Source of the DNA: Actinomycetota bacterium
GTDB taxonomy: Bacteria > Actinomycetota > Rubrobacteria > Rubrobacterales > Rubrobacteraceae
Direction of reading: 5' to 3'
Assembly: GCA_004563715.1 (NCBI GenBank)
Contig: SIRX01000012.1
Location: 1 to 59,928, forward strand
DNA length: 59,928 bases
Shown here: piece after piece, positions 490 to 22,096 of the stretch
How positions within the stretch are numbered: the first letter of the stretch is position 1
Layout: each line of letters begins with the position of its first letter
Program-made: the position numbers and the translations under genes
Notes under the pieces: generated by a model
What the model saw: the letters and a program-made list of their open reading frames with translations, nothing else
Database searches by the model: none
What the model was told of the DNA's origin: nothing

Positions 490-1917
490 CTAACGGATCA
501 CGTAGCGGTAGACGCCGACGGGGCTCCTGTTGCCCGCGCGGTCGATTGAGATAGCTTTTATCGTGCGGGTTTTGGAGATCTTGATCTGCTTGCGGTACAC
601 GGGGCTATTGGCGGTCGGCCGTTTTCCGTTTAGCGTGTAGCGGATAACCGTGCCCGGCTGCGAGTCCAGCGTGACGAGTTGCGTCCGGGGGTAGAAGCCC
701 GGGCGCGGCGTGGCGGACGGGGCTTTTGCCGGCGCGATCGTGTCCTTGAGTATCCTCAAGTTTACGCCGGAGACGGACGCGCCCCCTATCGTGTAGGTCG
801 CACGGGCGGTCAGCCTACCGTCCTTCAAGAGGCCGAGGAGCCGGAGCTGCCTGGCGGTCATCGCGTCGGTCCTCCAGGTCTGGAAGCCAGCGACGTAGGC
901 GGCCCGGCGCGTGGCGGCGAGCTCGATGGGGGCCGTCGCGGCGTTGTTGTCGTCGAGCGTGACCGAGACCGCGGAAGCGTCTTTCGAGATACCGGCCAGA
1001 CGGAGGCCCTTGCCCACGTTGGCTTTGTTGATGACCTTGGGGTTGCTCATCGTAACGGCGTTCTCGGCGAACGGCGGGCAACCGAGGAGAGCTTCTCCTT
1101 CGGCCTCGTCGGCCACGAAGATCGCGGGCGGGTCCACCTCTTCATCGCCGGCCGGGGGAGCCTCCGACCACTCCAGCGACACCTCGCCCGGGAAATTCTC
1201 CCAGTTCTGGGCGTCCTGGGAGCCCACGTTCAGGACCCTCGTCCAGGTTCCGCCGGGCTGGACGTTCTCACCGATGTCCACGCGCAGGTCCCTGCGGCCC
1301 GGGCGGTCCTGGTCCAGGCCCGGCCCCGTGTCCCAAAGGTCGTTCCGGTCTCCCTTGTTCAGCCGCAGCTCCAGGATATCCGTACCTGGTGCTACGCCGG
1401 TAGCGGCGGTCGCATCGGGGTTGACGCGGCCGGATATCGTGATCGTGCTGGCCCCCACGGCTATCGTCTCGAAGTCAACCTCTATATCGCGCACGACGGC
1501 CCGGTCGAAGCGACCGGCCGGGTCGCCCGCGGTTCTGGTGCGGATGGTGTCGCCCGGCATGATGTCCGGCGAGACGGGCGGCTTGAAGCAGTCACCGCCC
1601 TTCGAGACCTGGCCGCCACCCACGTGGTTGAACTCCGCAAAGCCCGTGGCATCCGTCTTGCCGGTCACGGAGCTTACGAGAACACCGTTTCTCAGCACGG
1701 CGATGGTGACCGACCTGTTGGCCGGGTAGTTTTGGACGTTGACCAAGTTCGTCCCGGTAAAGGCCTCGATCGTCCGTCCAGCCGTTACGTTGTCCGCCGC
1801 GGCAGCGGTGGAGACGAGCGTCGGAATAGCCAGGGCGGCGGCCAGTACCGAGGCGGCCAGCAGCTTTCTCCACCTGCTCCCCCCCTTCTCCAGCGCCGTT
1901 GTTTGTCCTGTCGTCAT
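490..1917 (-). CDS. Secreted protein with C-terminal chitobiase-type Ig-like domain (paralogue 1)
   Basis: A 475-residue protein of unknown function. A basic start with a hydrophobic stretch (about residues 19-40, ending in Ala-Ala-Ala) is a signal peptide, so the protein is exported. The middle has no family I recognise. It carries a conserved WDTGPGLDQDRPGR block and an acidic EVDPPAIFVADEAEGEALLG block. The last ~80 residues, with TPRPGFYP, GTVIRYTLNG, RPTANSPVY and IKAISIDRAGN, match the CHB_HEX_C-type Ig-like domain found at the ends of cell-surface proteins. The start is the ATG at 1915-1917 with AAGGAAGAG upstream. It lies 29 bases downstream of its paralogue and is probably cotranscribed from the promoter region above 3365. 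Confidence 0.8.
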   Translation of the reverse strand: MTTGQTTALEKGGSRWRKLLAASVLAAALAIPTLVSTAAAADNVTAGRTIEAFTGTNLVNVQNYPANRSVTIAVLRNGVLVSSVTGKTDATGFAEFNHVGGGQVSKGGDCFKPPVSPDIMPGDTIRTRTAGDPAGRFDRAVVRDIEVDFETIAVGASTITISGRVNPDATAATGVAPGTDILELRLNKGDRNDLWDTGPGLDQDRPGRRDLRVDIGENVQPGGTWTRVLNVGSQDAQNWENFPGEVSLEWSEAPPAGDEEVDPPAIFVADEAEGEALLGCPPFAENAVTMSNPKVINKANVGKGLRLAGISKDASAVSVTLDDNNAATAPIELAATRRAAYVAGFQTWRTDAMTARQLRLLGLLKDGRLTARATYTIGGASVSGVNLRILKDTIAPAKAPSATPRPGFYPRTQLVTLDSQPGTVIRYTLNGKRPTANSPVYRKQIKISKTRTIKAISIDRAGNRSPVGVYRYVIR

Positions 1918-1946
1918 CGTTCTCTCTTCCTTTCGCCCTGTTCGGC

Positions 1947-3365
1947 CTAGCGGATCACGTAGCGGTAAGCGCCCACGGGGCCCGCGTTGCCGGCTTTGTC
2001 CACCGCGACGGCCTTGATCGTCTGGGTACCGGTCACCCGTATCGGCCTGACGAACTCCCGGCTCCTGGCGGTCGGGCGGCTGCCGTTGACCGTGTAGTGG
2101 ATCTTCGTCCCGGCCGGGGCCTTTAGGGAGACGGAGATCGCCCGCTGGTAGACACCGGCTTTTGGCGTGGCGGCCGGCGCCCGTCTGGGGGCCACAGTAT
2201 CTTTGAGCACGTTCAGGTTCTGGCCCGCGAAGGTGGCGGTGGCGTTCTCGCCCGCCAGGTTCTGGCCGTTTACCGTATAAGTGGCCCGGGCGGTGAGCAT
2301 CCCGTCCTTCAGCCTCCCGAGCTGGGCGTTCGTGAACGAAGCCTGCCAGTTCTGAACCTCCTCCGCCGGCTGGAGGTTTACGACCCTGGTGATCGCCGGC
2401 GTCAGCGGGCTCCGGTCGTCGAGCGTTACGGAGACCCGGCTCGCGTTAAAGGCGACGCCACTCAGGTTGAGGGGCGCGTTCCCCGCGATAAAGGCTTTGT
2501 TGACAACCCCGGGGCTGCTGCTCTTGACGGCGTACTCCGCCAGGGGCGGACAACCGAGGAGAGCTTCTCCTTCGGCCTCGTCGGCCACGAAGATCGCGGG
2601 CGGGTCCACCTCTTCATCGCCGGCCGGGGGAGCCTCCGACCACTCCAGCGACACCTCGCCCGGTGTGTTCTTCCAGTCACGCGCGTCCTGGGAACCCACC
2701 CTCAAAACCCGGGTGAAAACCCCGTTGGCCTTGCGGTCCGCGCCGATGTCCACGCGCAGGTCCTTGCGGCCCGGGCGGTCCTGGTCCAGGCCCGGCCCCG
2801 TGTCCCAGCGGTCGGCGCTGCCCTTGTTGAGCCGCAGCTCCAGCACGTCGCCGTTCGCAATCGGCGCGTTCGCCATGCTCCGGGCGTGGCCGCTGACCGT
2901 TATCGTGCCGTTCTTCACGTTGGTGGAGATGGCGTCGAAGTTGATGCCGATGTTGCGGACCACGGCTGAATTGTTCACCGTGCCGGCCACCGCGCGGACG
3001 GTGTCCCCGGGGAGAACGTCGGGCGTAGAAGGCGGGGCAAAGCAGTCGCCGCCCTCCGAGACCTGGCCGCCGCCCCCGTGGTTGAACTCCGTGAAACCTT
3101 CAGCGTCGGTAGTGCCGGTAACAGACCCGACGACGAGGCCCCGCCGGATCACCTGTATGGTAACCGACGTGTTGGCCGGGTAGTTCTGGACGTTGATCAG
3201 GTTGGTCCCGATGAACGCCTCGATGGTGCCCTGCGGGACGGTCTGCGCCGCAGCCAGTGGGACGTGCGCGGAGACGGCGAGCGTCACGGCGAGAGCCGAG
3301 GCCGCCAGCAGCTTCTTTAGCCTGCCCCCCTCCTTACCCGTTGCTCTTGCAAACCTTGCGGTCAT
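1947..3365 (-). CDS. Secreted protein with C-terminal chitobiase-type Ig-like domain (paralogue 2)
   Basis: A 472-residue tandem paralogue of the gene at 490, with the same order: signal peptide (LKKLLAASALAVTLAVSAHV), GTNLINVQNYPANTSVTIQV near the mature N-terminus, the WDTGPGLDQDRPGR block, and a C-terminal CHB_HEX_C-like domain (GTKIHYTVNGSRPTARSREF, ending AYRYVIR). ATG at 3365 follows GAGGAAA; an in-frame GTG sits directly before it. The two genes share a perfectly identical 113-bp segment although flanking regions have diverged, which suggests recent gene conversion or constraint. It is the first gene of the unit, and shared element A lies about 210 bases upstream. No enzymatic motif is visible, so a structural or binding role at the cell surface is inferred. 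Confidence 0.8.
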   Translation of the reverse strand: MTARFARATGKEGGRLKKLLAASALAVTLAVSAHVPLAAAQTVPQGTIEAFIGTNLINVQNYPANTSVTIQVIRRGLVVGSVTGTTDAEGFTEFNHGGGGQVSEGGDCFAPPSTPDVLPGDTVRAVAGTVNNSAVVRNIGINFDAISTNVKNGTITVSGHARSMANAPIANGDVLELRLNKGSADRWDTGPGLDQDRPGRKDLRVDIGADRKANGVFTRVLRVGSQDARDWKNTPGEVSLEWSEAPPAGDEEVDPPAIFVADEAEGEALLGCPPLAEYAVKSSSPGVVNKAFIAGNAPLNLSGVAFNASRVSVTLDDRSPLTPAITRVVNLQPAEEVQNWQASFTNAQLGRLKDGMLTARATYTVNGQNLAGENATATFAGQNLNVLKDTVAPRRAPAATPKAGVYQRAISVSLKAPAGTKIHYTVNGSRPTARSREFVRPIRVTGTQTIKAVAVDKAGNAGPVGAYRYVIR

Positions 3366-3574
3366 CACTTTCCTCTTCTTTTTCTTTATCGCTGCTACGT
3401 TTTCAACGCCTTGTATGCAACATAAGAACCGGAGGATCGTTTCCCGGGTGCCACCAAGTCTCCCGTCTCGGGCCGCGGACCCCGCTTCTCGGGGGCATTT
3501 GTGGGCTCATCAGTCGAAGCCTCCCTTTCACGCGCTCTTTGTTACAGGCCATGATCTCCTACCGGGTGGCGCGT

Positions 3575-3645: not shown

Positions 3646-4263
3646 TCAGTGCCCGCCGTGGGAACCTTTTTCGTTCTCCCGGTCGCCGCCGTTGTCGTGG
3701 CCTTGGCCCCTGGTGGGCTCTAATTCCAGGACGACCGGCTGCCGGGCGTCGCCGAAGGTAAGCAGGAGGTTCCCGGCTTCCTCGGGGGCCTGGAAGATCA
3801 GGGCTCCCGAGGTCCCGCTACCCGGAGGAAGCGTACCCGCTTCGAGCTGGTGCCGGACCGGACCGGTCTCCGGCACGCCGGCGCCGGAGATCCTGAAGTC
3901 TTCCGCCGAGTAGTCGAGGCTTCCGCCCTCCGGGGCCGCCAGGCTGACCTCCACGGTAAAGCGCCGGAACCCCTCGGGGGCCATGTCCATGCCCATAGAA
4001 GACATGCTCATACCGCTCGCGCCGAACTTGCCCGCCTGCATCGGGGCCATGTGCTCCGGGGTGATGCCGTCAACGCGCAGGAAGCCTCCCGGAACCTCGA
4101 CCGTCTCGCCGACGGCCGCCGGCGGGGCCGGCGCTCCGAGAGAGACCAGAAGGCCCCAGCCGCCGGCGGCCAGCGCCACCAGTACGGCGACGAAGAGCAA
4201 GGCCCCGGCGAACAGGGACCACCGCGCGCGAGGCTCCCCGGTCTCGGACAGCGTGGAGATCAT
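3646..4263 (-). CDS. Membrane-anchored Met/His-rich protein, possibly copper-binding
   Basis: A 205-residue protein of no recognised family. One hydrophobic segment near residues 17-42 makes it a single-pass, outward-facing protein. Three features suggest soft-metal binding: a Met-rich stretch (MAPMQAGKFGASGMSMSSMG, then MDMAPEG), a GHDNGG segment, and the C-terminal ending SHGGH. The rest looks like an Ig/cupredoxin-like beta fold. The start is the ATG at 4263 with AAAGGA eight bases upstream. Shared element B lies 67 bases upstream. Proximity to CopC, CopD and a multicopper oxidase under the same element supports a copper-related role, but this is inference. Confidence 0.7.
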   Translation of the reverse strand: MISTLSETGEPRARWSLFAGALLFVAVLVALAAGGWGLLVSLGAPAPPAAVGETVEVPGGFLRVDGITPEHMAPMQAGKFGASGMSMSSMGMDMAPEGFRRFTVEVSLAAPEGGSLDYSAEDFRISGAGVPETGPVRHQLEAGTLPPGSGTSGALIFQAPEEAGNLLLTFGDARQPVVLELEPTRGQGHDNGGDRENEKGSHGGH

Positions 4264-5044: not shown

Positions 5045-7000
5045 CTACCTGGCGGTAAAGCTCCGGGTAACGGCGTTACCCAGGTGGGTCCGGGTCTTCT
5101 GGACGGCGGCCTGTACGGTGTGCCGGCCCGGCCGGCCGGGCCGGTATGTCGAGCGGTACGCGGAGTTCACGAGCGGCACGGCCTTCTTGAAGACGACCTT
5201 GCCGTTGCGCCGGACCGTGATGCTGACCACGCCGTTTTTCCTGGTGGTGACCCGGCCCGCGATGTCTACGTCGTTTCTGTTTTTTTCGGCGTCCGGTGGG
5301 CTTAGAGACACCTTCGCCTTTACGCTCACCGGCCTGCTGGCCGCCGAGCCCTGGATGCCCCTCTCGCCTCCGTAGCGCACCCGGTAGAGCGTGTTCTTCT
5401 TCGGTTTGAGGCCCCCGAGACGGAACGTGCCGTCGGTGGCGGTGGTCAGCGTTCCGCCGGGAACGGCGCCGAAGTCGGCGGCGCCGGCCGGACGTTGCTC
5501 CAACACCACCCGCTTGCCAGAGAGCGGTTTGCCGTCCGCCGTGAGGCTCCCGGAGAGCTTTGTGGCCGCGCCGTACTCGAGGACTGCGGGGCTTGCCGAG
5601 AGGCTCAGCGAAGACCGGACGACCGCCGCCGCATCCGCCCGGGCCGGCAGGGACTCGTTGCCCAGAGCATCCACCGCCGTCACCTTGTAGAAGGATACCG
5701 AGCCCTTCGGGGCGTTCGCGTCCGAGAAGGATGGCGCGGTGAGCAAGGCGGCGTTGAGCTTGGCGAAGCTGCCCTTTGGGGAGCTGCCCCGGTACACGTT
5801 GTAGCCGGCGAGGTCGCTCTCCGCGTTGCGCGCCCACCGGAGCGCGACGCCTTTCAGCGACCCGCTGGCTTTCAGGCTGGCCGGCGTGAGGGGCGCGGCC
5901 TCGACCTCCGCGCCGTAGACGTTGTAGCGGCCGAAGTTGGGCTCGCCCTGATACTGGGATTCCCAGACGATGACCTCGCCGCTGATCGCCGGGCTCGTCT
6001 GTGGCTCGTTGCTCGCGGCCACCAGGAACGAGTTGCCGGTCTTGAGGTCCCTGGCCCACACCTCGGCCTTGCCGTTGCGGTGGTCCTCCCAGACCACGAC
6101 GGTGCCGCTGATCGCCGGCGACACCTGGTCGGCGGAGGTTCCGGCCGGATCCGGGGTAATCTCGAACACCTTGCCGTTGTGCAGGTCCATACCGTAGAGG
6201 TCCCGGCCGAAGATGGTGTAGTCCGCCACGGCCTCCTGACGCCAGACCACGATGTTACCGCTGATCGCCGGCTGGTCCTGGTACTTGTCGCTGGCGCTGA
6301 CGTGGAACACCTCGCCGGTCGCGAGGTTTTTGGCGTATATGTTGGAGGTGACGGTGCCGTCGGACCGCCGGGTCTCAGCCTGCCAGACGACGATGTCGCC
6401 GCTGATCACCGGGTTGGTGTGGATGCCGCTGCCGGTGATTACGGGCTGTGACGCAGGCGGAGACTGGGAAGTCAGGTCGTGGCTGTAGATCTCCCATTTC
6501 CCGGAGCTGTTCTTGCTCTCCCAGATGAGCGTGTTGCCGCTGACCTCCGGCTTGCGTTGGTCCCCGGGGCCGCCAGCGAGCACGCGCTCCTGGGAGGCGG
6601 AATCGCGGAGGTTCTTGACGTAGATGTCGGAGTGTCCGCCGCGGTCGTCCTCCCACGCCACGGACTTACCGTTGGTGACCGGCTTGCCCCGGAGGCTGAC
6701 GCCGGTGGCGACAAGGGTCTCCTGGCCCGTGGCGAGGTCCTTGGCGTAGATGTTGGAGACGTTGTCCCGGTCGTCCTCCCACACCACCACGCCGCCGCCC
6801 ACGGAAGGCTTCTGTTTGTTGCTGCTGGTATCGGAGACCGGAAACTCCGTTTTCTTCACCTCGGCGTCCGCCGGGGCTGCCCAAAACGCGTACACGGCCA
6901 ACCCGGATACGATGAGCGCGGCCGACAGCAGGCCCAGCATCCCGGACATCTTCCGACGACCCGGCCGCTGCCCGGCTACCGACACCGCGCTGGGTTTCAT
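5045..7000 (-). CDS. Exported TolB-like beta-propeller protein with FN3 and Ig-like domains
   Basis: A 651-residue protein. A hydrophobic segment at about 18-45, ending AAPADA, exports it. Residues ~55-380 contain about seven repeats of ~45 residues with the core [V/I]SG-x-x-[V/I]VW-[E/Q/R] followed by IYAKDLATG-like strands, typical of TolB/WD40-like propeller blades. Next is a fibronectin type III domain (~385-470, with LAGYNVYRGSSPKGSF) and then two Ig-like modules to the C-terminus. The final module (RPGRPGRHTVQAAV ... TRSFTAR) resembles the C-terminal ends of the multicopper oxidase and the subtilase in this cluster. ATG at 7000 follows GGAGAGGCGGG. Shared element C is 124 bases upstream. 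A binding or scaffold role at the surface is likely; no enzyme motif is seen. Confidence 0.8.
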   Translation of the reverse strand: MKPSAVSVAGQRPGRRKMSGMLGLLSAALIVSGLAVYAFWAAPADAEVKKTEFPVSDTSSNKQKPSVGGGVVVWEDDRDNVSNIYAKDLATGQETLVATGVSLRGKPVTNGKSVAWEDDRGGHSDIYVKNLRDSASQERVLAGGPGDQRKPEVSGNTLIWESKNSSGKWEIYSHDLTSQSPPASQPVITGSGIHTNPVISGDIVVWQAETRRSDGTVTSNIYAKNLATGEVFHVSASDKYQDQPAISGNIVVWRQEAVADYTIFGRDLYGMDLHNGKVFEITPDPAGTSADQVSPAISGTVVVWEDHRNGKAEVWARDLKTGNSFLVAASNEPQTSPAISGEVIVWESQYQGEPNFGRYNVYGAEVEAAPLTPASLKASGSLKGVALRWARNAESDLAGYNVYRGSSPKGSFAKLNAALLTAPSFSDANAPKGSVSFYKVTAVDALGNESLPARADAAAVVRSSLSLSASPAVLEYGAATKLSGSLTADGKPLSGKRVVLEQRPAGAADFGAVPGGTLTTATDGTFRLGGLKPKKNTLYRVRYGGERGIQGSAASRPVSVKAKVSLSPPDAEKNRNDVDIAGRVTTRKNGVVSITVRRNGKVVFKKAVPLVNSAYRSTYRPGRPGRHTVQAAVQKTRTHLGNAVTRSFTAR

Positions 7001-7190: not shown

Positions 7191-7229
7191 CGGTAAGGTG
7201 TGGCCCGGCGGCCGGGCCACACCTTACCG
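7191..7229 (-). terminator. Strong terminator overlapping the stop codon of the multicopper oxidase
   Basis: An 18-bp perfect stem (CGGTAAGGTGTGGCCCGG and its complement) with a 3-base loop. On the minus strand it is followed by CTTTTCC. The oxidase stop codon (7224-7226) lies inside the first arm, so termination is built into the end of the gene. Confidence 0.85.
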
Positions 7230-10200
7230 GGTTACCCTGAACTCCTTCGCCGGGCTCTTGCTGGGGCGGTGGTCGCGGTCTCCGGCGAAGCTCGCCCGTA
7301 CCGTGTAGACCCCGGGGGGTCCGGCCTTGTGACGGAAGCTGTAGCGGGAGTTCTTGAGCGACAAGGATCTGTTGACGACCGTCTGCCCGCCGCGCTTGAT
7401 GACCAGCTTGACCTTACCCCCGTGCCGGGGCTTCACCGCGCCGGAGAGGGTAACGATCCGTCCGCGCTTTACGGAGGCGGAGGACGACTTCAAGGAGACC
7501 GCGGACTTTGCCTTTGCCGGGCTCGTCGCAGAGGTCTCCAGGGGCATGAGCGGATGATAGCTGCTGGCCAGCGGGTTGTCCGGGCTGCGTAGCGGTGAGG
7601 GACTCAGCGCGGCCGCGGCCGACGGCCGCGTGTAGACCCGCATGAGGCCCCACAACCCGCCCGAGAGGTTGTGCCGGTACATCCCGTCGGCGTACCGGTA
7701 GTCGCCCGCGTAGCCGTTGCCCGCGCTTCTGAGGTGGACGTTGAGCGCCCGGCTGACGCTCATGCCGCCCTGCACGGCGACCCGGGGCGAGCCGGGGTCG
7801 CCGGGGAAGACGTTCCAGGCGTGGCCGAGCTGCTCGAAGGAGTGCTGGCGCTGCTTATCCGCGCCCTGCAGCACCCGCATCCGCACCCGGTCTCCGGCGT
7901 AGGCCCGGAATACCGGGGTGTCCGGGTCGCCGTGCACCCGGGAGCTGTACACGTTGGCCATCTCCCGGCCGTTCATCGGGTTTGCAGCCGTGGCCTCGCC
8001 CGCCTCCCGGCCGCCGAAGCGGTGCCGGAACTGGGCGGTGCCGTAGTTAAAGCCCTTCTCGCCCTGGTCTATGTGGTCGTTGGCCTGGCCGGGCGGCTCG
8101 TTCGGGTCGGAGGACTCCTCGATGGGCGCACCGGACCTGTCCCGGAGGTTCAGGCCGTCCTGGAAGAAGGCCGTGAACTCGCGGAAGTCGTTGTTCTTGC
8201 CCGGCACCCGGATGTCGGCGGAGACGCCGCTCTGGATCTTCTTGCCCGTCAGCGGGTCGTGGTAGGTAGCGCCCTTGGGCTCTATGGTGAGCCCGGCGAA
8301 GAGGCCGTGGTGGCGGTGGGCCCGCACGTCGCCGAAGTCGGTGAGGTTGATGGTCCCGAGCTCGCCGTCGGCGTACCAGCGGTAGAGCCTGGACTCGTCG
8401 GGGCCGACCGTCTGGTCCCGGTTGTAGCCGACCGCCGTGCCGTCGGAGCCGCGCACGTCGTACTTGACGAGTTGCGGGTTGAGCGAGACCCGCAGGCCGG
8501 CCCTGGTGCCCGTGTCGGGCTCCAGCGGCGGTTGGGCGTCGCCGTCGGTTCCGGCGTTGCCGTGCCTCAGGAAGTTGGAGGTGAGCTTGTTGGTGAGACG
8601 CACCTCGATGCAGTCGCCCGCGTTGGCCCGGAGCACCATCGGCTCGGTCTTCTTCTCCGCCCGGACGCGGGCCACCGTCTGGTTGGCGGTCTCGCCGGGA
8701 CGGGATAGGGCATAGATCAGGCCGTAGGGATCGTTGTCGCCCTGCTTGTTGTAGACGAGCTTTTTCTCCAGGGCCACGACGCTGAACTTCCTGGTCGGCG
8801 CCCCGACTTTGCACGGGTTGCCGGGCGAGCTGGACCCGGGCGGCGTAACCGCGCTGGGCGTGGGGGCCTGGGGTCCGGCCGGCGGCACGTTGTCCGGCAG
8901 GGGCAGGAGCGAGGGGACCCGGCTGCCGCGGGCCCGCAGGATGCCCCACATGCCCATGTACAGGTCGTCCACGTTCTGGCTGGAGTAGAGGTAGTCCCCG
9001 ACGCAACTCTCGGCGTTGGCCCCGCACTCTATCTTCGGGACCCTGAAGTTGAACGCCTCGGAAATGCCGACGTCCTGGGAGGCGACGAGCGGCGACCGGG
9101 GATCTTCGACGTCCTCGCGCCAGCGCATGCCGTTTATGGAGAAGGTGTGCTGGTGCTCCTGGGAGCCCTGGATCAGGCGCACCTGCACCGGGTCTTCGGC
9201 GTAGGCTTCGAGCACCGGGGTGGCCGGGTCGCCGTGGACCGTGGAGCTGAAGACGTGCGCCGGGTCCGTGCGCTGGCCGTCCCGGTCTTGGCGCAGCGGG
9301 AACGGCGCGTTGCGGTAGTTGATGCCCACGATGCCCGGGTCCTCGTCGGGGTAGCTCTCCGGCGCGTTCGGGCCGACGAACACGTCGTTACGGTTCGCCG
9401 GGTTGCCGCCCGCCCGCGTCAGAGACACGAAGTCCTGGTAGGCGAGGCCGTACTCGCGGAAATCGTCCCTGGCCCCAGGGCCGATCACGTCCATCGCCGC
9501 CCCCGCCGCGTCGCCCTCGCAACCCTGGGCCGCGGGGCAGTTCGGGGCGCCGGGGACGTTGCCGTTGCCGGGCTGGTAGAACTCACCCGTCCTGGGGTTG
9601 CGGAAGTTCATGCCCGCGGGCTCGACGAGGAGGCCGGCGAACTGCCCGCGGTTCTGGTCTATGGCCGGGAAGTGGTGGTCGTGGGAGAAGGCCGTGCGCA
9701 GCTCGTAGTCCGCGTACCAGCGCTCGCGGATGGTCTGCCCCGGTTGCACCCCGCCGCTCCACGAGGGGTTCCAGGTCGCAGGGTTCGGGAGCGTGCAGCC
9801 GTTCGCTTCGTCACAGCTCCTCTGGCCGCTGGCGACCTGCCGGTTGAAGTTCATCTGCTCCTCGGTAAAGGCGGCCTGCTGGTAGTTCCAGCCGTTGGAA
9901 GCCCCGTCGGAGGCGAGCACGTCGAACTTCACCAGGTGGATGTGCTGGCCCATCATGTTGGTCTGGGTCAACCGGACGAAGGCGTCGCCGCCGAACCAGT
10001 TGGGGAGCAGGTTCGTGAGGTTGAAGTTCACGCAGTCGCCCGCGTTTACCCGCACGAAGAGCGGCTCGGGCTGGTTTCTGTAGGAGCCGTTGGGGTTCCT
10101 GGCGAGCATCCGGGGCACGTCCTTGTCGAGGACGAGGAAACGGCCCTGGGTGTCGTGCCAGCCGGCTTCGTTGTACACGATGTCGCGCTGCATGACGGAG

Positions 10201-12845
10201 ACGTTGTAGGTAACCTCGCGGGCCCCCGGCGGGCAGGGGTCGGCGAACGGGGCTCCGGGCTCGCCCAGGGAGCCGCCGTTGCTGCGCCGCCGCACCTGCT
10301 CCTCGACCTCCAGCTTCTCGGCGAGCCGCTTCTCCAGGGGATCGGTGAGGTCGAGCTGCGCCGGGTCGAGGGCCTTGCCGGCCACGACCCGGGTCGCCGC
10401 GACCTTCTGGTCGGGGTTGTTGGGATCGGGCTCCTGTACGCTGCCCGGCGGTTGGGGCGCCCGCCAGCCGTACTCGCCGGGGATAAAGCGCGGGAAGCCG
10501 GGGTTGTCCACCGTGGGCCGGGGCGGGGCCGTCCTGTCGGGGAGCTTCACGAGCTGGCGGACCTTCGTGCCGTCGGGAGTCTTTCCGGTGCCGTTCTCGT
10601 ACACGTCGTGCACCCGCAGGAGCGACCAGAAGCCCTCGGCGAAGTGCGGGTAGAGGTGGCAGTGGAAGATAGAGTCCCCGAAGGTACCCGGCTGGCTGCC
10701 GGCCCCGTAGAGCAGGTCGGCGGTGAACGTCTCGCCCGGCCCGAAGGTCTGGGAGTCGAGGGTGGAGGAGTTGGGGTTCCTGGGGTTGAAGGTCGCCTTG
10801 TCCTTAGGGTTGGCGAGCCACTGGTGGGCGTGGAGGTGGAAGACGTGCGTCTCGGCCACGCCGGCCATGGCGTACCGGATCTTGGTCGGGTCCCCGACGT
10901 AGGAGTGGGTGACGTTGGCCACGTAACAGGAGCCCTTGCCCGCGAGCTTCGCCTCCAGGCCGCAGTCCTCCCGGCCCGGCTCCCAGGGGCTCTCCCGGGT
11001 CGCCTTGCCGCTGGCGAGCTTTACGAGGGACGGGTCGCCGTAGCCCCAGGAGGAGAGAGAGACCTCTTCCCCGAGGCCGTCGGCCGGGAGCCGGCCGGCT
11101 TCCTCCCGGTTGCGCTGCGGCTCGGTGCCGTAGTTGAAGCCGTGGCCCACCAAGCCGGGCTGGACCTCGTTGTAGTCCTGGGCGAGCTGCACGCTCTCCC
11201 GGAAAGAAGCGGCGCCCACCGGGCGGATGTCCGCGTCCACGTAGGGGTCGCCGCTGGACTTGGTGACCCGGGTGTGGTTCGTGGTCCCGTTGTAGAGCGG
11301 CTGGCCGGTCTCCGGGTCGGTCCACCGGGAGCCCGCAGGCTCGACCGCCACCGCGCCGTAGAGGCCGTGGGCGTTGGATCCGGCATCCTCCTCCTCGCCG
11401 CTGGTCATCGTCTGGCTGCGGAACAGGTGGAGGCCCTCCTCGTTCGGGGCCTGCCAGAAGTAGGTGGTGGACTGGCCGATGCCGACCGTCGTGTCCTTGT
11501 TGAAGCCCACCGCGCCGCCGTCAGAGGTCTTGGCGTCGTAGGCCATGCCGCGCACCTGCATGGAGGCCCGCGGGTTCACCAGCCGCCCGCTCCACTGGGT
11601 CGGGCTCAGCTCGTTTTTGAAGTTGATCTTGATGCACTCCCCGGCGTTGGCCCGCAGGATGAGGGGCCGGGGACGCAGACGCCGGTTTCCGGCTGGGTCA
11701 TCAGCCGCGTTGGCTGCGAGCGGCCGGAACCAGTTTTTGGTGGCCAGCTTGTCGCCCTGGAGCACGTAGACCTGGCCGTCGGGGTCGAGGTCGCCCCAGC
11801 GGTTGAAGGGTATGGCCACGTTGACGGCGGCCACGCTGTACGAGCGGTCGTAGGAGGCGGCGGAGCACGCCGGCGCGGCCTGGGCCTCGGCCGGCCGCGA
11901 GAAACCTTCGAAGAAGCCCAGCCCGAAAACGACCGCTACCGCCGCCGCCAGCCCGGCGACGACGGCGGCGGTCCGGGGCCGCCAGAAGCCCACGACCTTC
12001 GGCTCCTCCCACGGCAGCCCGCGCAGGGCGGCGAAGCCGAGCAGGATCAGGAAACCCGCGCCGAGCACCGCGCCCGCGTCGCCCAACGCCTGCGCCAGGA
12101 AAGTTTCCGGCGTGGTGTGCCGCATGGCGAGGCCGTTCGTGGGGACGCTCAGGACACCATAAGCGGCCGCGAGGCCGAGCGCCCAAACGACGTTGGCGGA
12201 GAGGCCGTCCCGGAGCCCGGAAGCGGCGACGGCCCGCCGGGCCAGCGGGGAGACCGACCAGACGACGAGCCCGGAGAGCGGTAGGGCGAGAACCGAGACC
12301 CAGGCCCAGTGCAGCAGGGGAGCGGGGGCGTGGGCCTCGGGCATCCCCGCGTGAAGCGCGTGCAGCACCGCGCCGGTCCCAAACGCCAGGAGCGTGGCCG
12401 GCAAGAGGTAAGCGCGGGTGGAGGAGAAGCCCCGGGCGAGGGCCAGCAGCAACAAGACCAGCGCCAGCTCCGAAGCCGTGGCGGAGATACCGAGGGCGTC
12501 GACCGGATGCGCCTCGCCCGTGTGCGGCCCGAGCGGCAGGCCCGCCGTGTGCATCGAGACGAAGAGTGAGATCAACGCCAGGTTGCCGGCCACACCGGCG
12601 AGCAAGAGCCGCCGTTCCGGCCAGCGCAGGAGGACCACCCCGTAGAGGCCCTGGGCGAGCGCCACAAAGAGGAAAAAGAAGCCGTAGCCCCACCACTCCC
12701 CGAGGTGGTCGGGCACTACCCAGAGGTGGATCATGGCCGCCGCCAGGGAGAGCGCGGCGGCCGGGTAGATCGCCAGCTCCAGGCCCAGGCCGGCGCCCAG
12801 GTGCCGGGCTACGCTCGTCCTGGAACTGCTCGGCGCTGTCGTCAT
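7224..12845 (-). CDS. Giant multicopper oxidase fused to an N-terminal membrane domain
   Basis: A protein of about 1,873 residues. Residues 1 to ~315 form a polytopic membrane region with many histidines near its helices (MIHLWVVPDH, SMHTAGLPLGPHTGEAH, HALHAGMPEAH). The remainder is a chain of cupredoxin-like domains. Visible copper motifs (approximate residues) are HLHAHQW (667), FHCHLYPHFAEGFW (725, type-1-like Cys), GQHIHLVKFD (965), SHDHHFP (1052), QEHQHTFSING (1228), RAHRHHGLF (1503) and KQRQHSF (1660). The last ~90 residues are an Ig-like module. Ligand pairs spread over many domains recall six-domain or manganese-oxidase (MnxG-like) enzymes, so oxidation of a metal ion or organic substrate outside the membrane is likely; the substrate is unknown. 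An in-frame ATG exists upstream at 12950, but ATG 12845 has GGAGG nine bases before it and is preferred. Element D lies 70 bases upstream and CopC/CopD are adjacent. Confidence 0.85.
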   Translation of the reverse strand: MTTAPSSSRTSVARHLGAGLGLELAIYPAAALSLAAAMIHLWVVPDHLGEWWGYGFFFLFVALAQGLYGVVLLRWPERRLLLAGVAGNLALISLFVSMHTAGLPLGPHTGEAHPVDALGISATASELALVLLLLALARGFSSTRAYLLPATLLAFGTGAVLHALHAGMPEAHAPAPLLHWAWVSVLALPLSGLVVWSVSPLARRAVAASGLRDGLSANVVWALGLAAAYGVLSVPTNGLAMRHTTPETFLAQALGDAGAVLGAGFLILLGFAALRGLPWEEPKVVGFWRPRTAAVVAGLAAAVAVVFGLGFFEGFSRPAEAQAAPACSAASYDRSYSVAAVNVAIPFNRWGDLDPDGQVYVLQGDKLATKNWFRPLAANAADDPAGNRRLRPRPLILRANAGECIKINFKNELSPTQWSGRLVNPRASMQVRGMAYDAKTSDGGAVGFNKDTTVGIGQSTTYFWQAPNEEGLHLFRSQTMTSGEEEDAGSNAHGLYGAVAVEPAGSRWTDPETGQPLYNGTTNHTRVTKSSGDPYVDADIRPVGAASFRESVQLAQDYNEVQPGLVGHGFNYGTEPQRNREEAGRLPADGLGEEVSLSSWGYGDPSLVKLASGKATRESPWEPGREDCGLEAKLAGKGSCYVANVTHSYVGDPTKIRYAMAGVAETHVFHLHAHQWLANPKDKATFNPRNPNSSTLDSQTFGPGETFTADLLYGAGSQPGTFGDSIFHCHLYPHFAEGFWSLLRVHDVYENGTGKTPDGTKVRQLVKLPDRTAPPRPTVDNPGFPRFIPGEYGWRAPQPPGSVQEPDPNNPDQKVAATRVVAGKALDPAQLDLTDPLEKRLAEKLEVEEQVRRRSNGGSLGEPGAPFADPCPPGAREVTYNVSVMQRDIVYNEAGWHDTQGRFLVLDKDVPRMLARNPNGSYRNQPEPLFVRVNAGDCVNFNLTNLLPNWFGGDAFVRLTQTNMMGQHIHLVKFDVLASDGASNGWNYQQAAFTEEQMNFNRQVASGQRSCDEANGCTLPNPATWNPSWSGGVQPGQTIRERWYADYELRTAFSHDHHFPAIDQNRGQFAGLLVEPAGMNFRNPRTGEFYQPGNGNVPGAPNCPAAQGCEGDAAGAAMDVIGPGARDDFREYGLAYQDFVSLTRAGGNPANRNDVFVGPNAPESYPDEDPGIVGINYRNAPFPLRQDRDGQRTDPAHVFSSTVHGDPATPVLEAYAEDPVQVRLIQGSQEHQHTFSINGMRWREDVEDPRSPLVASQDVGISEAFNFRVPKIECGANAESCVGDYLYSSQNVDDLYMGMWGILRARGSRVPSLLPLPDNVPPAGPQAPTPSAVTPPGSSSPGNPCKVGAPTRKFSVVALEKKLVYNKQGDNDPYGLIYALSRPGETANQTVARVRAEKKTEPMVLRANAGDCIEVRLTNKLTSNFLRHGNAGTDGDAQPPLEPDTGTRAGLRVSLNPQLVKYDVRGSDGTAVGYNRDQTVGPDESRLYRWYADGELGTINLTDFGDVRAHRHHGLFAGLTIEPKGATYHDPLTGKKIQSGVSADIRVPGKNNDFREFTAFFQDGLNLRDRSGAPIEESSDPNEPPGQANDHIDQGEKGFNYGTAQFRHRFGGREAGEATAANPMNGREMANVYSSRVHGDPDTPVFRAYAGDRVRMRVLQGADKQRQHSFEQLGHAWNVFPGDPGSPRVAVQGGMSVSRALNVHLRSAGNGYAGDYRYADGMYRHNLSGGLWGLMRVYTRPSAAAALSPSPLRSPDNPLASSYHPLMPLETSATSPAKAKSAVSLKSSSASVKRGRIVTLSGAVKPRHGGKVKLVIKRGGQTVVNRSLSLKNSRYSFRHKAGPPGVYTVRASFAGDRDHRPSKSPAKEFRVTR

Positions 12846-13026: not shown

Positions 13027-14028
13027 CTATTCGAGCACGGACCCGGCGGGCGGGAGGCTCGTCAGAAAGCCGGCGGCGACAAAGATCCCCACCGCCAGCG
13101 CCAGCTCGGCGCCGACCATGCGCCCGAGCGGCCCGCGGCCCTTGTCTATGAAGTTGATCCCGCCGACCGCCAGCAGCAGCACCATGAGGCCGAGTTTCAT
13201 GATGAGCGCCCGCCCGTAGGGCGTGCCGACGAGCCCGGCGAGGCTCGGTATCTGGGCCAGGGCTGCGTAGATGCCGGTGACGACGATGAGCATAACCGCC
13301 AGGGTCGCCACCCGCGAGAAACGCCGGACCGTTCCGATGCGTAGCTTGTTGCCGTCATCGGGCTCCAGCGGGCGGAGCGGCCCGAGCAGGAGCAGCGGGA
13401 AGCCGAGCAGCCCCCCCATCCAGAGCGCCGCCCCGACCACGTGCAGCCAGCTGGCCAGCAGGGCGACGCCGCCCTCCGCCGCCGCGTGGCCCTGCAGGGC
13501 CAGCGTGGCGAGCATGGCGGCACCCGGGACGGTGGCTGCCCACCAGCCCAGCACGCCCGGCCGCCGGTAGGCCCACGCCGCCAGGAGCACCGTGAGCAGC
13601 CCGAGGCCGAGCCGTACCGCCCAGAGGCGTCCGGTCCGGGTGCCGGATAACGCCTCCCAGAACAACCCCGGGCTCAAGGGCTCTCCGGAGGCGCGCACGG
13701 CGAAGAGCGAGAGCTCCGCCACCCCGGCGGCCGCGAGCAACCCGAGCAGAAACAGCGCCGCGCGGGCAAACCAGCGTCCGGCCCCCAGGCCGGTTTCGAA
13801 CCCCAGGTTCCGGCTGACCGGAAACCAGACCAGGGCCGCGAAGGCGACCAGCCCGGCGAGGAAGACCGCAGACCCCTGAGCCGCCCCGTGGGCGATCCCC
13901 ACGGCGGTTACGAACCGCGGCTCGGTCACCAGCTCACCCTGAGCCCGGGCGACGCCCGGCACCGCCAGCCCCGCGGCGACGGCCAGCGCCAGGGAGATTC
14001 CGGCACGTCGCAGAGCGTTCCCCGTCAA
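13027..14028 (-). CDS. copD: CopD family copper membrane protein
   Basis: A 333-residue membrane protein with a cleavable-looking N-terminus (ISLALAVAAGLAVPGVARA) and about eight hydrophobic helices, consistent with the CopD domain that takes part in copper uptake across the inner membrane with CopC. Conserved helix histidines are visible: GIAHGAAQG near residue 48, QGHAAAEGG and SWLHVVGAALWMGGL. The SWLHVxGAxxWxGG signature is typical of CopD. The start is TTG 14028, three bases after the stop codon of copC, so the two are translationally linked. Both are minus strand downstream of the protease gene. Related CopD proteins can be fused to CopC; here they are separate. Confidence 0.88.
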   Translation of the reverse strand: MTGNALRRAGISLALAVAAGLAVPGVARAQGELVTEPRFVTAVGIAHGAAQGSAVFLAGLVAFAALVWFPVSRNLGFETGLGAGRWFARAALFLLGLLAAAGVAELSLFAVRASGEPLSPGLFWEALSGTRTGRLWAVRLGLGLLTVLLAAWAYRRPGVLGWWAATVPGAAMLATLALQGHAAAEGGVALLASWLHVVGAALWMGGLLGFPLLLLGPLRPLEPDDGNKLRIGTVRRFSRVATLAVMLIVVTGIYAALAQIPSLAGLVGTPYGRALIMKLGLMVLLLAVGGINFIDKGRGPLGRMVGAELALAVGIFVAAGFLTSLPPAGSVLE

Positions 14029-14032
14029 GGCC

Positions 14033-14593
14033 CTACCGCCTCCGCAGCATCAGGCCCCCCAGGGCCAGCGCGCCCAGCGCGAGCGCCCCGATCCCCAGTA
14101 CCGCGTATAAAGCGGTGGAGGCCGCGCCGCGCTCCGGGCCGGACGATGAATCGCCGCCCGACGCCGGCTCTTCCGAACCTGTTCCCTCGTCCTCCGCGAC
14201 CGCCGGCTCCGAACCGGAGCGGGCGCTGAACTGGTAGGAGCCTTCTATGACGTGCCCGTCGACGCCCGTGTAGCGGTACTCGGCCGTGTAGGAACCCGCG
14301 GGCAGGCCGTCCTTCAGGTCTACCATCAGGGTGGTGGGGGCATCCGGGTCTACCCGCGCGTTGTCCTCGTCCACCCGCCCGCCCGCCTCGTCGTAGACTT
14401 GTAGCGGGCTGAACTCAGCCTCCACCGGCTCCTCCAGGAAGAGCTGTACCCGCTCGGGCACCGTCTCCAACTCCTCTCCCGGCTCCGGCGCGGACCTTAC
14501 GATCTGCGTGTGGGCCGTGGCAACACCGGCGGCGCCCAACAGCAAACCCCCGGCCAGAAACACAGCCGCTATTATGATAGTAGCACGCAACAC
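14033..14593 (-). CDS. copC: CopC domain copper-binding protein with C-terminal membrane anchor
   Basis: A 186-residue protein. The signal peptide ends VATA and the predicted mature protein begins with His (HTQIVRSAPEPGE), the N-terminal histidine that, with a second His, forms the copper 'histidine brace' in CopC. The second conserved His lies in DGHVIEGSYQF. The beta-sandwich spans to about residue 125, then an acidic Ser/Gly linker and a transmembrane helix (YAVLGIGALALGALALGGLM) ending RRR, so copper binding occurs at the outer face. Start GTG 14593 has GGAGG six bases upstream; an ATG further upstream (14647) has no comparable site. It overlaps functionally with copD directly downstream. 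Confidence 0.9.
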   Translation of the reverse strand: MLRATIIIAAVFLAGGLLLGAAGVATAHTQIVRSAPEPGEELETVPERVQLFLEEPVEAEFSPLQVYDEAGGRVDEDNARVDPDAPTTLMVDLKDGLPAGSYTAEYRYTGVDGHVIEGSYQFSARSGSEPAVAEDEGTGSEEPASGGDSSSGPERGAASTALYAVLGIGALALGALALGGLMLRRR

Positions 14594-14704
14594 AGAGTGC
14601 CTCCCTCCTGGCTCCGGCCGTCGCAACCAGTTTGCCACCGGTGGCATGGAATCGCGTCCCTCATTTGGGCTATTTTTCTTTTTCGGCCGTTCATCGCGCG
14701 GCGT

Positions 14705-18329: not shown

Positions 18330-19040
18330 CTAGCGGATCTCGATGACCCCGTGACGCACCGCGAAGACTAGCGCCTGGAGCCGCGAGTGGACGCCGAGCT
18401 TGTTCAGGATGTTGACCATGTGGGTACGCTCGGTCTCGACGGTAATGTGCAGGTTCTCGGCGATCTCCTTGCTGTCCATGCCCGTGGCCAGCGCCTGGAG
18501 CACCTCCTTTTCGCGGCGGGTCAGCTTCTCAATGGCCTGGCGCGCGTCCATCTCCTCCTGCCGCTTGCGGCTCACCGTCCGGAGCATCTGGATCATCTCG
18601 TTCGGCGAGAGCAAGGCCTGGCCGTTTCTCAGCCGCCGCACCGCGTCCACGATCTCGCCTATGGAGGCGCTCTTGTGCAACACGCCGGCGGCCCCGGCCT
18701 CGACCGCGCTGGCGAAGCGCGCGGGCTCCAGGCTCGCACTCAGCACCAGGGTAGCTATCCTGGGCTCGGAAGAAGAAAACTCTTCCACCAGCTCGATGCC
18801 GTCTCCGTCGGGCAACCCGAGGTCCACGACCGCCACGTCCACGCCGTTCTTGGCTACCCGCGCCTCGCTCACAGACCCCGCCTGGGCGATCACGCTGAAC
18901 TCCGGCTCACGCTCGAACATGAACGCCAGGGCCTGGCGAAACGAAGCGTGGTCTTCGACAAGCAGGATGTTCGCCGTCTGCTCTTCCACCTGTCCCTCGG
19001 TTATCTCGATTTTTCCGTGTAGTGTCTTAGCTTCACCCAT
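18330..19040 (-). CDS. NarL/LuxR-family response regulator
   Basis: A 236-residue regulator. The receiver domain covers residues ~24-140: NILLVEDH with the acidic pair, the phospho-acceptor Asp in VAVVDLGLPDGDG, and a Lys in LHKSASIGE. A linker precedes the GerE/LuxR helix-turn-helix at ~170-232 (LTRREKEVLQALATG, SKEIAENLHITVETERTHMV, NILNKLGVHSR), which binds DNA as a dimer. It is preceded by two sensor kinases on the same strand, the likely phospho-donors. A diverged copy of the shared element lies 31 bases upstream, suggesting autoregulation. NarL-family proteins use 7-2-7 inverted repeats, so this protein is the best candidate to bind the shared element (inference). Confidence 0.92.
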   Translation of the reverse strand: MGEAKTLHGKIEITEGQVEEQTANILLVEDHASFRQALAFMFEREPEFSVIAQAGSVSEARVAKNGVDVAVVDLGLPDGDGIELVEEFSSSEPRIATLVLSASLEPARFASAVEAGAAGVLHKSASIGEIVDAVRRLRNGQALLSPNEMIQMLRTVSRKRQEEMDARQAIEKLTRREKEVLQALATGMDSKEIAENLHITVETERTHMVNILNKLGVHSRLQALVFAVRHGVIEIR

Positions 19041-19070
19041 TCCGTATTATGGCTCTCCGGCCGACGCCAT

Positions 19071-19114
19071 TCCATCATACAGATGTACCAATTTATAGTA
19101 GCCCAAACGAGCCA
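19071..19114 (-). promoter_or_regulatory. Shared upstream element, diverged copy F
   Basis: Aligned without gaps to the consensus of copies A-E it matches at about 26 of 44 positions by eye. It keeps CCATC at the left and TAGCCCA-AA-CGAGCCA at the right with identical spacing, but the inner GCGAT dyad has decayed. It lies 31 bases upstream of the response-regulator start, close to the 34-base spacing of copy E. Confidence 0.45.
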
Positions 19115-19171
19115 GGCGGGACGGCGCGCTGTTTCGGGCATCCGGCTCCGGAACCCGCCAGCGTGCGGTGC

Positions 19172-22096
19172 CTAGGCATCGTCGGTTGGGGGATATGGCA
19201 TCTCGAAAACCACCCTGGTTCCTTCGCCGGGCGCGCTCTCCACGTGGAGCTCTCCTCCCAACTCTTGCGACCGCTGGCGCATGGAGTGCTGCCCCACCCC
19301 ACCGGTAAAGGTTCCGGGAACGAAACCCTTGCCGTCGTCGGCTATCTCCACCCGGACCTTCCCATCCTCGTAACCCAGCCTGACCCACACGTTCTCGGGT
19401 TCGGCATGCCGCCGGACGTTGTTCAGCGCCTCCTGGACGATGCGCACGATCTCCCGTCCCGGCCTCCCCGGGATCTCTTGGGGAAACCCGTTCCCGACGA
19501 AAAGGTCTATACGGTACTTCCTGCGGGACATCCGCAAGTTTAGGTCTATCAGTTGCTTCAACAGGTCTACAAAGGACTGCTTGAGCGTACTTTCCAGCCG
19601 TAACTCGAAGATGGCGCTGCGGAGCCCCTCTACCGACCGCCGGAGGGCTGCCGCGACGCTCTCAAGCTCGGCCTCCGGGCCGTCGTCTGCGATGGCCCGC
19701 ATTATCTGGGTCTCTTGCAGCGCGTAGACGATGTCCTGCAGGATGTCGTCGTGCAGGTCCCGGGCTATGCGGTTGCGCTCGGCTTCCCGGGCTTCTTCCA
19801 GGGCCTCCTCGGCCCGCTTGCGACCGGTGATGTCGTGGGCCACCACGCACATGACCGGTTGGTTATCTACGGACACCGTGCTGACGCTGACCTCCACGTC
19901 TACCAGGGTACCGTCCTTGCGCCGGTACTGGCGCTCGCCGACATGGTACCTGCCATGCTCCAGTATGCGCCGGACGTTCTCGTCGATGCTCTCCCGGTCT
20001 CCGGCGACGAGGTCGTAGAGCGTCAAGTTTGGCATATCTTCGCTCTCGTACCCGAGCGAGCTATAAAAGGCGTCGTTGCACTCCAGGATGCGCTTTGACG
20101 CCACGTCCACGAGGAAGATGTTCTCCGCGGCCTGCTCGACCACGGTGCGGTAGAGTGTCTCGCTCTGGCGCAAGGCCTCTTCTACCCGCCGCTGCTCGGT
20201 TATGTCCACCGCGTAGATACGCAGGAGCCCGCTCTCGGGCAGCCGGGATATGATCTGCAGGTAGAAACTCCCCCCTACCCGGACCTCGCGGTTGAACGTC
20301 CGGCCACCGGTGGCCACGATCCCGGCTTCCACCGACTCCAGATCCGCCAGCATCGGATGGTCTTTCTTCAGCCCTCTCAGGTCCGGGAAACGCTCCTCGG
20401 CGGCCGGGTTGAGGTAAGTGGGCTCGCCGGCGATGCTCGTTTCGACGATGGGGTTGGGGTTCAGGGTAGGGTACGAGGCGAGCCGCGCGAGCTCTTCCTC
20501 AGCCCGTTTGCGCTCGGTGATGTCCTCGAAGATAGCGTAGACCTGGTAGGGTTTCTCCTCCCCCGGCCGGAACTGCGGGATGGCGTTGATGGTGATCCAG
20601 CGGTGGGTCGCCTCTGTGGGAACGTAGACTCCGATCACGACGTTCTCGAGCCTGGTGCCGGTCTTGAGAGCCAGCATCGTGGGGTGCTCCTCGCCCGGCA
20701 GCTCAGAGCCGTCCTCGCGGATCGTCCGCCACCGAGGGTCCATGGAGGTCCTGCCCTGCATCTGGTCCAGCGTAAGGCCCAGGATGCGCTCGGCGGCCGG
20801 GTTGGCGGAGGTGATACTGCCCTCCGCGTTCTGGTAGACGATGCCCTGGGTCATGGTCTCGAACAGGGTTCTGTAGCGCTCCTCCGAGACCCGGAGCTCC
20901 TCTTCGGCCCGCTTGCGCTCGGTGATGTCGAACACGACGCCCTGCCAGAACAGGGGCCGGCCCTCGGCGTCCCGCACCAGGGCTGCCTCATCTTGCACCC
21001 ACACAACCCGTCCGTCCCGGGTGAACTGACGGTACTCTACCCTGAAGGGCTCGCCGGTCTCGTCCGTGCGGGCGTCCTCGTTCAAAACGCGCTCGCGGTC
21101 CTCGGGGTGCAGGAGCCGGGGGAAAAGCCCGGGGTCCGCCATCCACTCCTCGGCGGAGTAGCCGAACAAAGATTCGATCTGCGGGCTCACGTAGAGCAAG
21201 GTCGTGGTGCGCTCCTCGTAATCGACGGCCTCGACGTAGGTTATGGCCGGGATCTGCTCGACCAGCGTGCGGAACCGTGTCTCGGCCTCTTGCAGTTGCT
21301 TCTCGGCCTCCTTGCGCCCGGTGATGTCGCGAACCGTAGCCACGAGGAGCGGTTTCTCCTCGTTCTCGAAGACCCCCACGCGAACCTCTACCGGGAAGGT
21401 GGAGCCGTCTTTGCGGCGGTGGCGGCCTTCCAGGGTACGGGGCGAGCCGGAGGAGACCTCGTTCCACACCCGCTCCAGCGCGCCGGGCTCGTAGTAGACC
21501 TCCACCTCCGGAACGGACATCTCCAGCAGCTCCTCGCGAGCGTAGCCCAGCGACTCGCAGGCCTGACGGTTTACGTCCACGAACCGTCCGTCGAGGTCGT
21601 GGACGAACATGGTGTCGGCGGCCTGCTCCACGAGCCGCCGGAAACGGTCCTCGCTCCGTTCCAAAGCCTTCTCGGTCTTCCCCCGCTCCCGGCGGACCTC
21701 GGCCTCCCGCAGCTCCCTCTCTACGGCGGCGTTGAGGCGCGCCATGTTTTCTTTGGTAATGTAATCGTGCGCCCCGGCGCGCATGAGCTCGACCGCGAGG
21801 TCCTCCCCGACCTTGCCGCTGACGACGATGAACGGGATATCGTAGCCCAGGCTCCTGAGCAGGCGGAGCGCCGCTGGAGCCCGAAAACAGGGCATGTAGT
21901 AGTCGGAGATTACTATTTCCCAGGGCTCGCCCCGATCGTCGGCTTCCTTGAGGGCGGCCTTCATACCGCCCGGCGTATCCACGCGCTGGTATACGGGGTC
22001 ATAGCCGCCTCGCCGGAGCTCCGTGATGAGGAGTATGGCGTCGTTCTCCGAGTCTTCCACCAGCAGGAGCCGCAGGGGCCTGGACGGTCCGCTCAC
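19172..22096 (-). CDS. Soluble hybrid sensor histidine kinase: receiver, five PAS, HisKA_3, HATPase
   Basis: A 974-residue cytoplasmic kinase without membrane helices. An N-terminal receiver (LRLLLVEDSEND; acceptor Asp in VISDYYMP) is followed by five PAS/PAC units, several ending DITGRK or DITERK. The fourth is degenerate. The C-terminal kinase is of the NarX/DesK type: phospho-His in ERNRIARDLHDDILQD and ATP-binding boxes EALNNVRRHAE and VEIADDGKGF. Start GTG 22096 overlaps the stop codon of the preceding CHASE kinase (GTGA), indicating translational coupling. The order CHASE kinase, receiver-PAS kinase, NarL regulator suggests a phosphorelay in which this protein takes phosphate on its receiver and controls the regulator at 18330. 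Confidence 0.9.
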   Translation of the reverse strand: MSGPSRPLRLLLVEDSENDAILLITELRRGGYDPVYQRVDTPGGMKAALKEADDRGEPWEIVISDYYMPCFRAPAALRLLRSLGYDIPFIVVSGKVGEDLAVELMRAGAHDYITKENMARLNAAVERELREAEVRRERGKTEKALERSEDRFRRLVEQAADTMFVHDLDGRFVDVNRQACESLGYAREELLEMSVPEVEVYYEPGALERVWNEVSSGSPRTLEGRHRRKDGSTFPVEVRVGVFENEEKPLLVATVRDITGRKEAEKQLQEAETRFRTLVEQIPAITYVEAVDYEERTTTLLYVSPQIESLFGYSAEEWMADPGLFPRLLHPEDRERVLNEDARTDETGEPFRVEYRQFTRDGRVVWVQDEAALVRDAEGRPLFWQGVVFDITERKRAEEELRVSEERYRTLFETMTQGIVYQNAEGSITSANPAAERILGLTLDQMQGRTSMDPRWRTIREDGSELPGEEHPTMLALKTGTRLENVVIGVYVPTEATHRWITINAIPQFRPGEEKPYQVYAIFEDITERKRAEEELARLASYPTLNPNPIVETSIAGEPTYLNPAAEERFPDLRGLKKDHPMLADLESVEAGIVATGGRTFNREVRVGGSFYLQIISRLPESGLLRIYAVDITEQRRVEEALRQSETLYRTVVEQAAENIFLVDVASKRILECNDAFYSSLGYESEDMPNLTLYDLVAGDRESIDENVRRILEHGRYHVGERQYRRKDGTLVDVEVSVSTVSVDNQPVMCVVAHDITGRKRAEEALEEAREAERNRIARDLHDDILQDIVYALQETQIMRAIADDGPEAELESVAAALRRSVEGLRSAIFELRLESTLKQSFVDLLKQLIDLNLRMSRRKYRIDLFVGNGFPQEIPGRPGREIVRIVQEALNNVRRHAEPENVWVRLGYEDGKVRVEIADDGKGFVPGTFTGGVGQHSMRQRSQELGGELHVESAPGEGTRVVFEMPYPPTDDA

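Follow-up and report, generated by a model that had tools for sequence, protein, structure and literature searches.

Why would a bacterium make a very large multicopper oxidase in one chain with a polytopic membrane domain, and what would such an enzyme oxidise? This question is raised by a gene of the window analysed here, the whole stretch of 59,928 nucleotides, which lies on contig C9 of a Rubrobacteraceae-type genome (3.47 Mb, 99% complete) whose close relatives include Rubrobacter. The explanation that we favour, and consider reasonably probable, is that this gene specifies an MnxG-class oxidase destined for export, which is co-translated with a membrane partner, carries an internal signal peptide, is likely cut there, and would act on a metal ion.

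A single reading frame conserved in Rubrobacteraceae

The fused-protein gene (7224..12845, reverse strand, like all the features placed within it below) is a single open frame which runs from the ATG at 12845 to the stop at 7224, encodes 1,873 aa and is preceded by a strong Shine-Dalgarno sequence (GGAGGA, 8 nt 5' of the ATG). Its product comprises two membrane modules that we call A and B, a ninth helix, a six-domain MnxG-like oxidase and an Ig-like tail. Full-length orthologues having the same architecture and 55-65% identity are present in five other Rubrobacteraceae genomes, so that the fusion is due neither to chance nor to an assembly join, and the single chain of about 1,870 residues announced by the original prediction, oxidase plus membrane domain, is real. 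The same prediction regarded this size as unusual, a view which does not hold since prokaryotic six-domain oxidases of 1,217-2,681 aa have been published (PMC3600357). In Rubrobacter marinus, the fusion gene exists in two copies, each of them with a frame break that reflects sequencing error or decay.

Another possibility raised at the outset was a frameshift hiding two separate genes. We rejected this reading: the domain border is uninterrupted, with neither stop nor frame change, in all relatives, and the internal start at GTG codon 285 is not conserved. The latter codon could also give rise to two translation products, the internal start yielding an oxidase headed by a signal peptide, while the long frame would be no more than an overlap. 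In the window, AGGAG indeed stands 9 nt before GTG285, just ahead of helix 9 (11991-12011), and a weak version exists at locus L012, but the other Rubrobacteraceae relatives present no Shine-Dalgarno-backed equivalent, no relative has a stop between the two parts and the Shine-Dalgarno sequence of the ATG at 12845 is strong, which makes the two-product scenario very improbable.

The oxidase part belongs to the MnxG class

The oxidase part is composed of six cupredoxin domains (residues 327-1745) arranged as three two-domain repeats, which were recognised by internal comparison with E values of 1e-14 to 1e-43: domains 1-2 (residues 327-770; 10536..11867), which also match Cu-oxidase_2/_3 in Pfam, domains 3-4 (residues 865-1335; 8841..10253) and domains 5-6 (residues 1340-1745; 7611..8828), in which the alignment indicates that the copper sites are lost. 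They are followed by a C-terminal Ig-like domain, Big_3_5 (residues 1785-1872; 7230..7493), whose Pfam score is 36.8 bits for a cut-off of 35.5. The best PDB sequence match, over the whole oxidase length, is MnxG from the Mnx complex of Bacillus sp. PL-12 (9bxa, E 4e-210). Foldseek, used with an AlphaFold model of domains 1-4, also placed 9bxa first (E 1e-61), followed by factor V and ceruloplasmin. The confidence of this model is low (pLDDT 57), so that the geometry of the copper sites rests on homology. Structure prediction thus gave for domains 1-4 a fold like that of 9bxa, the number of six domains coming from the internal repeats, and it agrees with the initial description of an MnxG-like or ceruloplasmin-like multi-domain oxidase, MnxG being on top by both sequence and fold. 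We conclude that the oxidase part belongs to the six-domain multicopper oxidases of the MnxG class. It is not an MnxG equivalog by the curated rule: the NCBIfam model NF041487 (1,894 positions) matches the protein in six stretches with an E value of 4e-122, and the score of 408.5 bits stands against a cut-off of 3,100.

The six-domain cupredoxin fold is also shared with ceruloplasmin, factor V and factor VIII, as found with Foldseek. In these proteins, the trinuclear site, where present, is located between domains 1 and 6. The protein studied here is unlike ceruloplasmin in this respect, its trinuclear site being placed between domains 2 and 3, while domain 1 (LHLFRSQ) and domain 6 (KQRQHSF) are devoid of ligands.

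Copper sites and the nature of the substrate

The alignment of relatives allowed us to assign the copper ligands. The motif HVFHLHAH (10824..10847), invariant in the relatives and in MnxG, provides H667 to the type 1 site and H670 and H672 to the trinuclear centre; HCHLYPHFAEGF (10629..10664) provides H728 and H730 (trinuclear), C729 and H734 (type 1) and the axial F739; HIH (9936..9944) and HDH (9675..9683) provide, respectively, H968 with H970 and H1055 with H1057, all four trinuclear. The three type 1 ligands are thus within domain 2, which also carries half of the trinuclear site, and the eight trinuclear histidines are distributed between domains 2 and 3. These 11 core ligands do not vary among the 22 sequences other than MnxG that were used for the tree, our protein included, and the ligand sets of both centres, which the original prediction proposed to check, are complete. 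Compared with these ligands, MnxG 9bxa differs solely at the equivalent of H734, where it has an alanine; we dropped the idea of a real difference between the type 1 sites, because 9bxa is an engineered H340A mutant (Foldseek).

The copper-ligand motifs listed by the first reading of the sequence are all at their places, and four of them (HLHAHQW, FHCHLYPH, GQHIHLV and SHDHHFP) are true ligand motifs, invariant among the aligned relatives. The other three, QEHQHTF, RAHRHHG and KQRQHSF, belong to domains 4-6 and are mere vestiges, without the Cys and the partner His. LHLFRSQ had been described as a degenerate site: domain 1 is indeed without ligands, but this is normal for a class in which the trinuclear centre is between domains 2 and 3. 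In published bacterial six-domain oxidases, domains 2 and 3 are those which hold the copper (PMC3600357), and the protein has in common with them this location, the domain number and the length range; its size and the degeneration of the motifs elsewhere (domains 1 and 4-6) are therefore normal.

The axial position of the type 1 site is occupied by Phe in the clade of this protein and by Met in MnxG and the other clades. A phenylalanine at this position points to a high potential. An axial Phe is also found in high-potential laccases and domain 2 resembles two-domain laccases by sequence comparison, two features that would suit a laccase-like oxidase of phenols or pigments; we consider this function improbable, since the similarity over the whole length is to the metal-oxidising MnxG class and not to laccases. 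We think of a metal ion as the most likely substrate, Mn(II) being the first candidate and Cu(I) the second. No Mn-specific residue was found, nor any MnxE or MnxF equivalent among the annotated neighbours, which counts against the explanation that we favour. In such an enzyme, the type 1 copper of domain 2 would receive the electrons of the substrate, and the His-Cys-His link would convey them to the trinuclear centre shared by domains 2 and 3 for the reduction of O2 to water.

The membrane part is made of two modules without family match

Ahead of the oxidase, residues 19-315 contain nine helices predicted by hydropathy and AlphaFold (pLDDT 81), in line with the membrane domain of about 315 residues that had been expected. 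Alignment and AlphaFold delimit two modules of four helices each, module A (residues 19-136; 12438..12791) and module B (residues 140-275; 12021..12428). Neither module has a family match in Pfam or NCBIfam, and the membrane part, the new feature of this protein, has no match in the PDB, by sequence or by fold. The conserved residues are H40, P45, H47, E50, W51, GYG, Q65, N88, GPH108 (in GPHAG) and E126 in module A, and P189, R203 and D256 in module B. The histidine clusters noticed in the original prediction are therefore conserved in part: H40 (20/20), H47 (19/21) and, mostly, H108 (16/21) are kept among the relatives, while H99 and H113 are confined to particular lineages and H162-H179 show no conservation. 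With the N-terminus inside, H40, H47 and H108 would be exposed on the outer face of the membrane.

Both modules are repeatedly tied to copper oxidases, as neighbours or by fusion. Module B, with A missing, is fused to MnxG-like oxidases at three loci of Chloroflexota, which were searched at class level, and at nine loci of the actinobacterial Kribbia family. It also exists as its own gene 12 nt before an oxidase gene (L137:4699-5241), and in a B+A gene which overlaps an oxidase gene at the latter's stop codon (ATGA; L124:1982-3151), where the B match is weak (19.6 bits). Module A was found in 50 of 296 actinobacterial genomes. As its own gene, it adjoins a three-domain oxidase at six loci (L045, L046, L047, L049, L050 and L102) and in the host genome too, on the separate contig C26 (L051). 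Three other loci show a further type of membrane-oxidase fusion, in which module A continues in frame into a smaller multicopper oxidase and the chain has an internal Tat signal, SRRDFL (L103:5933-6871, in which the contig end cuts the gene, L125:267-1757 and L126:889-2367). Because both halves occur as separate genes beside copper oxidases, we see in the membrane part a probable partner dedicated to the oxidase. Module A is also present away from oxidases, fused to DUF305 (L094:2353-4059, beside CopC; L095:1293-3002; L096:5345-6526), to a beta-propeller or to unassigned domains, near metal transporters, and beside FTR1 and COX2 genes; its occurrence outside the oxidase context counts against the favoured explanation, as A could be a membrane module of general use.

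The relationships between these oxidases were analysed with a tree rooted on MnxG, for a set of 22 non-MnxG sequences (our protein included) plus MnxG. All the membrane-fused oxidases form one fully supported group, which also includes L052, an oxidase with a plain signal peptide and without membrane part; L068 and L070, oxidases without any membrane part, fall outside this group.

Helix 9, a putative internal signal peptide

The last helix of the membrane part, helix 9 (11883..11984), is signal-peptide-like: it presents RPR, then a hydrophobic core, then PAEA/QAAPAC, where the slash marks the predicted cut after A321. In 7/7 Rubrobacteraceae, basic residues are found ahead of it and [AV]xA/Q behind it, and AxA or VxA follows it in the 19 sequences with membrane part that were checked (19/19). 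This signal-peptidase-type site was called by motif, and AxA alone is weak, being frequent by chance in Ala-rich chains; only the aligned [AV]xA/Q is better. The export and cleavage reading is carried by this aligned motif and by comparative cases: L052 has an ordinary signal peptide at the place homologous to helix 9, and in the module A-oxidase fusions the membrane module is followed by a Tat signal which precedes the oxidase. In L045, L049 and L050, the fusion is adjoined by a gene for signal peptidase I (the L045 gene was assigned to Pfam PF10502). Helix 9 thus resembles a signal peptide embedded in the chain, and the oxidase may be cut off after A321 during export.

According to the explanation that we favour, the oxidase would be translated in one chain behind its nine-helix membrane partner (modules A + B), helix 9 would start its export, and a cut by signal peptidase after A321 would separate the membrane protein from an oxidase of about 1,550 residues, either secreted or held loosely at the membrane. 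A layout of this kind exists in FbcH, the cytochrome b-c1 polyprotein of Bradyrhizobium, in which one chain holds a membrane-embedded protein and a redox protein for export, split from each other by signal peptidase; the likeness concerns the proposed layout only, the proteins being unrelated. Alternatively, the membrane domain could stay attached and form a polytopic anchored oxidase, in which helix 9 would be an ordinary helix and electrons could be exchanged between membrane and oxidase. The border maintained in a single frame in all relatives with membrane part, in two phyla, and the conserved H40, H47 and H108 on the predicted outer face agree with this arrangement, but it explains neither the conserved cleavage-type site nor the plain signal peptide of L052 nor the Tat signal of the independent A-oxidase fusions, and no haem or quinone site is recognisable; we regard it as rather unlikely.

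A copper-related gene neighbourhood

Four conserved neighbours surround the fusion gene on the same reverse strand. Upstream are the genes of a CopD-like membrane protein (13027..14028) and of a CopC-like copper-binding protein (14033..14647); on the other side are those of a beta-propeller protein with TIGR04275 repeats (5045..7000) and of a Met-rich anchored protein with weak similarity to DUF4352 (3646..4263). In the 181-bp gap between the fusion gene and CopD, neither promoter nor terminator was found. When relatives are compared, the cluster is seen to contain, besides the fusion, CopC and CopD, a three-domain oxidase accompanied by module A, the beta-propeller protein, a small RTX-repeat protein, the Met-rich protein and a LuxR-type regulator with kinase. 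The Met-rich protein, kept beside the oxidase in Rubrobacteraceae and Chloroflexota, ends in a His and contains a motif centred on GMSMSSMGMDMAPEGFRRF; it likely binds copper. Further upstream in the window (18330-24036), a LuxR-type response regulator, a multi-PAS kinase and a CHASE kinase are partly conserved in relatives and likely regulate the cluster. The window also encodes, at 490-3368, two similar proteins with CHB_HEX_C_1/Fn3-associated tails, and at L102 such tail domains are fused to a three-domain oxidase.

These neighbours are compatible with a copper-resistance oxidase which would act on Cu(I) within the CopC/CopD system and would not oxidise Mn. CopC and CopD are directly upstream and kept in relatives, the Met-rich protein is close by, and module A occurs beside CopC and fused to DUF305; yet the closest characterised homologue is a Mn oxidase, the high potential to be expected from the axial Phe would be superfluous for Cu(I), and CopC and CopD may serve only to load the enzyme, so that we hold this function to be doubtful. 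For the exported MnxG-class oxidase that we favour, the membrane partner would most likely act alongside CopC and CopD to load the oxidase with copper or to dock it on the outer face of the membrane.

The comparison with Bacillus MnxG underlines what is particular to this system. MnxG has no membrane part, whereas the fusion protein has modules A + B, an axial Phe in place of Met, an Ig-like tail and CopC/CopD neighbours. MnxG requires MnxE and MnxF (PMC5622069). Neither was seen among the annotated neighbours of the fusion gene, and the Met-rich protein, considered as their equivalent, had no PDB match to Mnx chains, which leaves this assignment unsupported. The membrane fusion is not described in the main text of the article on six-domain oxidases, where the words 'transmembrane' and 'Rubrobacter' are absent (PMC3600357), and our literature search on Rubrobacter Mn oxidases or membrane-fused MnxG returned nothing relevant.

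Significance

A broader reading, which seems plausible to us while stopping short of probable, is that A + B constitute an undescribed partner of extracytoplasmic multicopper oxidases, dedicated to their assembly or copper loading, made with MnxG-like oxidases as a polyprotein which signal peptidase would split at the embedded signal peptide and thus supplied 1:1 with the oxidase; the polyprotein would cover Rubrobacteraceae (A+B) as well as Chloroflexota and the Kribbia-type family (B only). Mn oxidation of the MnxG type is hard to study in Bacillus because accessory subunits are needed, and in this clade a single gene provides a system whose membrane partner is built in. Although module A is common among Actinobacteria, we found no family description for it; the recurrent link of A and B with oxidases hints at what they do and yields a model of co-translational pairing that can be tested.
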